Shown here piece by piece: positions 7,515 to 8,595 of a DNA stretch of 23,588 nucleotides. Origin of the DNA: a virus; the IMG/VR virus record IMGVR_UViG_3300035199_000156, positions 1 to 23,588 of that record, one strand, 5' to 3'. Positions within the stretch are counted from its first letter, which is position 1; each line of letters starts with the position of its first letter. The notes under the pieces are model-generated. The model made no database searches. It was not told where the DNA came from and saw only the letters and a program-made list of their open reading frames with translations. Made by a program: the position numbers and the translations under genes.

Positions 7515-8017
7515 ATTTTGCTCCCGTTTAAATGGAAAGATAAAACTATACAGGATTCACGCCTTAATCGCTACCTATAACATACATTGGTTCTACATTT
7601 TAGTTTGCCCTTTCGGGTCACGATAACTATCTTACTCCTTACGGAATCGAAGATATAATCATACTCTCTTGAGCCTTAGTGATTATAAGTCGAGACAATG
7701 TGCAATTGCTTGCCTTATCATCTCAGTCGTAACTCTTCTTTGATAACTTGTAGCTTGAGGTATGTATAACTCTCTTTATAACGCTACTTTACCGAACTTA
7801 CAGAAACTAGGTTTCTTTATTTAGTGTATGCGTGCTAATCAGAATTGCTTCATGGGGGTTGCAGTTGCCGTAGCCCATCCAGCCCTTATAGAACTGGTTC
7901 ATAGCCCTTGAAAGATAGTTTCTAGCCAAGCCTACCACACTTCAAGGATATAGTTGCGTATTAACCACTAGTTAGCTTTACTAATGACTAACACTATTAT
8001 CGTTCCAAATTCAATTA
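7515..8017 (-). ncRNA. Gene-poor, hairpin-rich island (candidate structured RNA)
   Basis: A stretch of about 500 bases in an otherwise tightly packed leftward operon. Apart from one 31-aa ORF (7807-7902) I find no convincing gene. It holds many short perfect inverted repeats: a CCC-GAAA-GGG tetraloop hairpin (7608-7617), TATAATC/GATTATA (7654-7660, 7681-7687), TTATCA/TGATAA (7715-7720, 7741-7746), GTAGC/GCTAC around 7750-7787, AGAAAC/GTTTCT near 7802-7816, and CCTTGAA/TTCAAGG (7906-7912, 7941-7947). Size and location suggest a large structured phage RNA, comparable in kind to GOLLD or ROOL, or a long untranslated leader. I do not recognise a class, and no tRNA is visible. Confidence 0.4.
7807..7902 (-). 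CDS. 31-aa ORF with unusual composition
   Basis: The ORF reads MNQFYKGWMGYGNCNPHEAI and ends LISTHTLNKET. Its codons (GGC, TAC, AAC, TGC, CTG) are more G/C-ending than those of neighbouring genes, suggesting a different origin or selection on RNA structure. AAGGG lies four bases before the ATG and forms part of the 3' arm of a perfect 7-bp hairpin (7906-7912 with 7941-7947), so the site could be masked. Because it sits in the structured island it may be a chance ORF in an RNA gene. Confidence 0.3.
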   Translation of the reverse strand: MNQFYKGWMGYGNCNPHEAILISTHTLNKET

Positions 8018-8266
8018 TTAATTCTTGTTATGAAAACCACTATCCTGCAGCTGTGGTATATCAATAGTCTTAATTATATGCTTATATGCTAACAAAGCAT
8101 CTTCAGCCTCATCGAATTCTATCCAAGCAGTATCATTCCTATAGCTACCATTTGTAGTAGGAACAACACCAGTAAAGAATAACTGTATAGAATGAGTCTT
8201 AGCATTAAAATCTATACTCTGTACTAATGATAAATTGTATAATATACCTTTAATTCTTACCCACAT
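8018..8266 (-). CDS. Small hypothetical protein behind a structured leader
   Basis: An 82-aa protein (MWVRIKGILYNLSLVQSIDF onward) with beta-like strands in the first 50 residues and a helix around EFDEAEDALLAYKHIIKTI. The pattern resembles short bacterial and phage proteins of the type 'MWVxI...YNLs.v..I', whose role I do not know. GAGGAG lies six bases upstream of the ATG. It is the first gene after the promoter and palindrome cluster at 8453-8568, and its mRNA would begin with a folded 91-nt element (8291-8381), so it is a likely regulated early gene. Confidence 0.65.
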   Translation of the reverse strand: MWVRIKGILYNLSLVQSIDFNAKTHSIQLFFTGVVPTTNGSYRNDTAWIEFDEAEDALLAYKHIIKTIDIPQLQDSGFHNKN

Positions 8267-8290
8267 TGATGACTCCTCATATGTTAAATA

Positions 8291-8381
8291 TTGGGGCTAC
8301 ACGGTCACTGGCGTTCCAACCTTTCGGTGAACTAGGCCATGATTACGTTATCTCAGCACGTAGTTTGTGCTATCGCCCCAA
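8291..8381 (-). ncRNA. Structured 5' leader RNA, riboswitch-like
   Basis: The leftward transcript folds into a compact multi-helix element. P1 is TTGGGGC/GCCCCAA (8381-8375 with 8297-8291). P2 is AGCAC/GTGCT with a seven-base loop (8371-8355). P3 is GGC/GCC, GTTC/GAAC and ACC/GGT capped by a GAAA tetraloop (8338-8310). The P2 loop contains CTAC, which can pair with GTAG next to the 3' strand of P1 (a possible pseudoknot). The element ends about 25 bases before an ATG with a GAGGAG SD, the usual place for a translational regulator. I considered tRNA, glutamine riboswitch and hammerhead and none fits. Confidence 0.5.
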
Positions 8382-8452
8382 AAAGTTATTAGCTACCACT
8401 TTATACTAATGGTTAACAGTACAGCATAATGCAGCATGTTTCGAGACCATGT

Positions 8453-8549
8453 TTGTAGAATACAAGTACTATAATATATGTAGCATACAAGTAGTTACCA
8501 CACAGTTATTAGTTGTATAGTACAAGTACTTATTAGTTGTATCATACAA
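8453..8549. repeat. Four 13-bp palindromic boxes, TTGTA-N3-TACAA
   Basis: Copies are at 8453-8465 (spacer GAA), 8478-8490 (GCA, first base A in place of T), 8513-8525 (TAG) and 8537-8549 (TCA). Starts are 25, 35 and 24 bases apart. The last two copies lie in a longer 24-base direct repeat beginning TTATTAGTTGTAT. The fixed half-sites with variable centres are typical of operators for a dimeric repressor or activator; iterons for a replication initiator are the alternative. The fourth copy covers the -10 of a leftward promoter. Confidence 0.7.
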
Positions 8550-8568
8550 ACAATTCTACACAGTTCAA
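8541..8568 (-). promoter_or_regulatory. Leftward sigma70-like promoter overlapping box 4
   Basis: Reading leftward, TTGAAC (8568-8563), a 16-base spacer and TATGAT (8546-8541) match -35 and -10 consensus at four and five of six bases. The -10 is inside the fourth palindrome, so a protein bound there would block or shape transcription of the block that starts with the 8018-8266 gene. Inferred from sequence only. Confidence 0.5.
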
Positions 8569-8595
8569 GAAGCATGCTGCTGTATGTAATGGTAT

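Follow-up and report, generated by a model that had tools for sequence, protein, structure and literature searches.

The locus and its genes

The stretch of DNA analysed here (the window) covers 23,588 nucleotides of the viral record IMGVR_UViG_3300035199_000156. Genes for a terminase, a P22-like portal and an SU10-like capsid are located on its plus strand, and a series of small, mostly unknown genes runs divergently from these structural genes on the minus strand; we infer that the minus-strand genes are early. We found no cultured phage that is closely related: among phage records the best TerL match is about 25% identical, and the 263-aa protein encoded near the element described below has no match there.

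The element is read leftward from 8381 to 8291, between an 82-aa ORF (8873-8625) that bears a terminator and a second 82-aa ORF (8266-8018), whose ATG at 8266 is 25 nt past the end of the element (Table 1). The sites at 8616-8600 that resemble a terminator are assigned to the preceding gene. The repeat-rich intergenic block at 8430-8570 is possibly the promoter/operator region of the leftward operon.

Table 1. Positions of the element, its parts and the adjacent features in the window.
Feature	Position	Strand	Remarks
Whole element, three-way-junction RNA (type A)	8291..8381	-	covariance model R1 match 8383-8289, 93.3 bits
P1 5' strand UUGGGGC	8375..8381	-	P1 pairs changed on both sides across homologues
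J1/2 'GA'	8373..8374	-	found in 10/10 sequences
P2 hairpin UAGCAC-AAACUAC-GUGCUG	8354..8372	-	U·G/A-U/G-C at the base invariant; covarying upper pairs; variable loop
J2/3 'AGAUA'	8349..8353	-	found in 10/10 sequences; not entirely free of ascertainment bias, most members having been found through the core
P3a 5' strand ACG	8346..8348	-	all 3 pairs covary (ACG/CGU, UUC/GAA, UC/GA)
'UAA' side of internal loop opposite GAN (UAA/GAN-like)	8343..8345	-	hand structural alignment
Upper P3: UC, bulged A, UGGC/GCCA, GAAA-capped hairpin	8309..8342	-	type-specific
'GAC' (GAN) side of internal loop	8304..8306	-	hand structural alignment
P3a 3' strand CGU	8301..8303	-	covarying pairs
J3/1 'GUA'	8298..8300	-	found in 10/10 sequences
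P1 3' strand GCCCCAA	8291..8297	-	covarying pairs
Shine-Dalgarno-like GAGGAG of next ORF	8273..8278	-	no pairing with element; access unaffected by P1
82-aa ORF (MWVRIKGILYNLSL…), no known family	8018..8266	-	3' of element in window, 5' of element in L088
Intergenic block with many TACTTGTAT/TATACAA repeats	8430..8570	-	ends in GGTCTCGAAACATGC; partly conserved in L007/L008/L010

Conserved fold and homologues

The sequence-only reading of this stretch had described an outer stem (UUGGGGC/GCCCCAA), a hairpin of 5 bp with a 7-nt loop (AGCAC-AAACUAC-GUGCU) and a GAAA-capped multipart stem (UGGC…GUUC…ACC-GAAA-GGU…GAAC…GCCA), followed after about 25 bases by a Shine-Dalgarno (SD) sequence and an ATG. 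All of these are found on the minus strand, the stems within 8291-8381 and the SD (GAGGAG, 8278-8273) and ATG beyond it. The loop pseudoknot (CUAC/GUAG) that was proposed along with them is possible in the window but it is not conserved in the homologues, whose P2 loops include UAAAACAAUU, UAAACCAUU, AAAUAA, UGAU and UCAA and mostly have no complement.

The minimum free energy fold of the window element is a three-way junction of -30.8 kcal/mol (z -2.55), i.e. modestly better than chance, as 4 of 200 shuffles were equally good. The complementary strand folds with similar strength (z = -2.54), so energy alone settles neither the strand nor the significance of the fold.

Homologues were searched for with patterns built from the core shared by the window and L008, a related phage (TerL 92%) that has GCGAUAG…CUGAGAUA…UAAUC at a different intergenic site. 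True homologues were found on viral contigs only, namely 10 distinct sequences on 11 contigs, representing about three clades: type A (the window, L085, L088 and L091), type B (L008, L084 with its near-copy L087, L086, L201 and L300) and L039, which is listed apart from the two types. The covariance model, built with apical P3 inserts trimmed, finds the 10 homologues with E values from 1e-9 to 1e-23, and L201 and L300, which were outside its training set, were recovered at 46.7 and 48.6 bits. A looser descriptor (GA, P2, AGAUA, UAA, GUA, P1) applied to the collected loci gave the same members plus three chance matches (5-bp P1). The sample is small, and as most members were found through the conserved core, its conservation may be overstated; however, a pattern made from the type B 3' half only picked up six loci, all six of which have the 5' core as well, so the core cannot be put down to the search alone. 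Two of these six loci have the variant UAAUU, with the pairing kept as U·G. When 49 related virus records were scanned with the model, two of them matched clearly (E 1.4e-20 and 1.8e-11); the element is thus rare, and it is present in a single copy per record. An exact 27-nt search and a distant blastn search against phage records gave no match.

Several candidates were set aside. These are a third match in the 49 records (E 0.27), taken as chance; the genome-contig matches to the core pattern (L092-L106), whose flanks look like chance; L082, L089 and L090, which fit the pattern and lack the P1/GUA architecture; and L107-L114, which match the pattern and are unrelated.

The common core can be written as P1–GA–P2(UAG…CUG)–AGAUA–P3a(3 bp)–UAA…GAN–P3a'–GUA–P1'. 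The unpaired GA, AGAUA, UAA and GUA are identical in all 10 sequences, and the GAN opposite UAA occurs as GAC, GAU or GAA, an internal loop which we take to be a motif of the UAA/GAN type. The arms are a different matter. The 5' strand of P1 reads UUGGGGC, UGGUGGC, UUAGC or CCGAGAU with matching partners, P2 occurs as AGCAC, AGUCA, AGCCC, AGUUA or AGGGU, each compensated, and P3a as ACG/CGU, UUC/GAA or UC/GA, with one C·A mismatch in L008 (CUC/GAA). The upper P3 is longer in L091 and also in L086, where the extension amounts to about 110 nt. The length of the element is about 91-120 nt in general and 204 nt in L086.

Over the 10 sequences, 14 of the 20 core pairs have changed on both sides, a number not reached in any of 500 shuffles, and standard pairing holds for 92.5% of the 187 core cells. 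If the partners are slid by 1-3 columns as a control, 24-49% are paired and at most four pairs show both-side changes. Covariation in a set of seven sequences likewise supports the fold. The alignments lean on structure: in the MAFFT alignments A1 and A3 the 3' half is misplaced, and we therefore relied on A2 (apical P3 inserts removed), on A4, which was fitted to the model, and on a structural alignment made by hand. The stems thus vary and are compensated across homologues, the opposite of the uncompensated breakage by which the initial description could have failed, and on comparative grounds the element is a real folded RNA, in which the junction core is conserved and the arms covary freely. 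As to the strand, there are 17 G·U cells against a single A·C cell (10 of the 17 being the invariant U·G at the base of P2), which indicates that the selected molecule is the minus-strand, i.e. gene-sense, RNA. All elements are in sense orientation to the neighbouring small ORFs.

Gain, loss and exchange of the element

The genomic context of the element differs from locus to locus. It is 5' of some ORF at every locus with enough flank, but the downstream genes differ and the distances to them range from 25 to over 300 nt; outside the window the next ORF is at least 105 nt away. In L201/L300 and L091 the element starts before the preceding ORF has ended, and that ORF has its stop codon in P2.

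One comparison is offered by L117 and L118, two contigs with long identical flanks, of which only the former has the element. L117 reads …AAAGCGGC-TCTAGAATT-[element]-…AATTGAGGGGG and L118 reads …AAAGCGGC-TACGTA-AATTGAGGGGG, i.e. TACGTA replaces the element together with short linkers. This near-isogenic pair is a natural comparison with and without the element. The two contigs also differ in an early small gene, which is swapped exactly between the SD/ATG and the following RNA module. A similar picture emerges downstream of a 73-aa gene. In L008 it leads directly to an SD and the next gene, and in L201/L300 to the element, which provides the stop codon inside P2; L137 has a hairpin/pseudoknot module at this place and L131 has other sequence.

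Between the window and L088 the homology at the element extends over about 100 nt, which is the extent of the element itself, and the surrounding gene order is swapped. The identity of the neighbouring 263-aa protein is 81% between the window and L008, 58% between the window and L088 and 30% between L008 and L084, while the elements are identical at 65/87, 87/91 and 99/114 positions, respectively. In other words, the window shares 92-96% identity in the element with phages to which it is only about 58% identical in the adjacent protein, and the phage nearest to the window (adjacent protein 81%) has the other subtype. The relatedness of the elements contradicts that of the genes, so the element moves between phages without its neighbours. 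The comparison of contigs shows it as a self-contained module, bounded by P1, that is gained, lost and moved independently of the neighbouring genes. Structured RNAs are thus seen to come, go and travel as discrete units in these phages. Our literature search found no paper on such swapped small RNA modules.

Known RNA classes and possible roles

Rfam 15 gave no match in the window at the gathering threshold, and at E<=10 no match overlapped the element, in keeping with the initial impression that the element fits no known class; matches on L008 and L084 were at chance level only, far under gathering. No tRNA or tmRNA was detected in the window, and no promoter or terminator that would release the element as a free RNA was shown.

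It is instructive to compare the element with structured RNAs that are already described. The manA (RF01745) and wcaG (RF01761) motifs are structured riboswitch candidates that come from marine metagenomes and cyanophages, where they are located in potential 5' UTRs (PMC2864571). They too are a phage-borne structured RNA class, but neither is matched by Rfam in the window, and our element has no particular gene association and is located in intergenic sequence or at the 3' ends of genes. GOLLD and ROOL are phage-encoded structured non-coding RNAs of unknown function that are not tied to an adjacent gene (PMC12286853). The element is likewise an orphan structured phage RNA untied to its neighbour; on the other hand, GOLLD and ROOL are hundreds of nucleotides long and often near tRNA islands, as opposed to 91 nt, no tRNA and no Rfam match in the window. 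The purine, TPP and glutamine riboswitch aptamers are three-way junctions with a closed P1, conserved junction bases and variable arms. The element is similar in size and shares these features, but none of the three matched in Rfam (gathering or E<=10) and the element has no expression platform. The packaging RNA of phi29 is also a small phage three-way-junction RNA; in contrast, the element is about 4 kb from the terminase on the divergent strand, is optional and swapped, and has no Rfam match. Of all these, manA/wcaG and GOLLD/ROOL come nearest to the element. It is apparently an RNA family without earlier description that can be filed under no known kind, with a crisp, testable core, in phages for which no cultured relative was found.

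What might such an RNA do? Our preferred interpretation, which we hold with about even confidence, is an accessory structured RNA that would work via its own folded domain and would not be tied to one downstream gene. The element would be made within a (probably early) leftward transcript, its RNA would fold autonomously, and the docked junction core would be offered to a protein or another partner; the RNA may stay in the intergenic mRNA or be freed by processing, and it would not control one particular downstream gene. As the exchange of the element resembles that of accessory early phage genes, the likeliest purpose would be host takeover, counter-defence or the handling of the early transcript. 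If the RNA acts in trans, the accessory early region of phages would include RNA effectors as well as small proteins. Exchange in the manner of accessory genes is no proof that the RNA acts in trans. At every locus with enough flank the element is also 5' of some ORF, which makes a cis role possible. The main rival is an intergenic mRNA element acting in processing, stability or translational coupling of the polycistronic small-gene transcript wherever it is inserted, possibly by self-cleavage or nuclease binding. We regard this as a tentative alternative. The element is always in sense orientation, always between genes and near other structured modules, its independence from gene identity suits a general-purpose role, and where the stop codon is in P2 the fold would face competition from ribosomes that terminate there. 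However, most related phages with the same operon lack the element (two clear matches in 49 records), it is present or absent between otherwise identical phages, and no known ribozyme class was matched, including in Rfam at permissive thresholds.

A classical riboswitch is less likely. The sequence-only reading had proposed a riboswitch-like leader of an early gene, and a ligand- or protein-sensing leader of the next gene does agree with the short distance to the SD in the window (25 nt) and with the small, conserved, covarying three-way-junction core, which is aptamer-like. There is also the precedent of manA and wcaG in cyanophages, and some riboswitch classes are not often upstream of homologous genes, so that a variable position is not an exclusive criterion and ligand sensing is possible (PMC2864571). 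The real fold and the sense orientation to small genes stand, but no fixed downstream gene was found: the element holds no steady 5' UTR position before functionally related genes, distances vary and gene order is swapped. Nor was an expression platform tied to an SD, terminator or antiterminator found. Upon constrained folding the access of the window SD was 0.50 with P1 open and 0.50 with P1 closed, there was no consistent effect elsewhere, and P1 is closed and apart from the SD; the proposed pseudoknot is not conserved. All in all we consider such a leader unlikely, and an intrinsic-terminator or SD-sequestering switch was dropped after constrained folding and the terminator check. A mobile repeat or recombination site of the integron attC or REP kind, in which the hairpin acts as DNA, is more improbable still. 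Exact swapping at module borders and horizontal movement would fit it, but the 17:1 asymmetry reveals selection on the RNA of one strand, the unpaired junction bases are conserved on one strand, the orientation to genes is constant and there is one copy per record among the 49 scanned. Finally, the energy z-score of only -2.5 could be that of a chance fold in AT-rich phage intergenic DNA, but this is hardly credible, being refuted by the strong covariation and the specific homologues.

The accessory RNA that we favour may not be alone, since other swapped structured RNAs nearby suggest a wider RNA repertoire. One recurrent module, CAAGGU-…-GCCGCU-ACCUUG-UAACMAA-AGCGGC-UCUAGAAUU, is probably an H-type pseudoknot and is found beside different genes and modules: L085 256 (-), L088 3425 (+), L118 157 (-), L137 3514 (-), L151, L153, L156, L201 203 (+) and L300 287 (+). 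It has a compensated stem change in L137 (UAAGGU/GCCUUA) and a broken 5' arm in L151. A GGGGAAC…GUUCCCC hairpin is another structured RNA swapped in the same regions. A conserved hairpin, GGGGGAACUACCGUCCAUCAUAAUUGUGCUCAC…GUGAGCAUUGUUCCCC, is located immediately 5' of an SD in L085 117 (-), L088 3565 (+), L091 1123 (-) and L118 117 (-), and in three of these four loci it is 3' of the three-way junction. The members of a small intergenic RNA-like family share the loop ACCCACAACUAC, while their closing stem varies by locus (GGGCAUUG…CAAUGCCC and others): L008 646 (-), L010 6998 (-), L137 3467 (-), L201 457 (+) and L300 339 (+). In the window there is a gene-free block of about 480 nt (7533-8026, minus strand), 93-94% identical in L128 (1119-620) and L135 (1667-1168), that is predicted to be highly structured (MFE -118, z -1.9, 6 of 100 shuffles equally good); it has no Rfam match, and we consider it a candidate for a large RNA of the ornate kind.

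We speculate, rather tentatively, that the three-way junction, the H-type pseudoknot, the hairpin RNAs and the ~480-nt RNA may form a swappable repertoire between early genes, exchanged like accessory genes and serving the phage as RNA effectors, in the takeover of the host or in counter-defence. If true, this would be an RNA counterpart to the hypervariable early-gene region. A conserved intergenic sequence that begins with GCAUCCCA(G/A)C ahead of a gene, in L008 492 (-), L010 6261 (-) and the window (about 7290-7200, minus strand), is possibly a further structured RNA.
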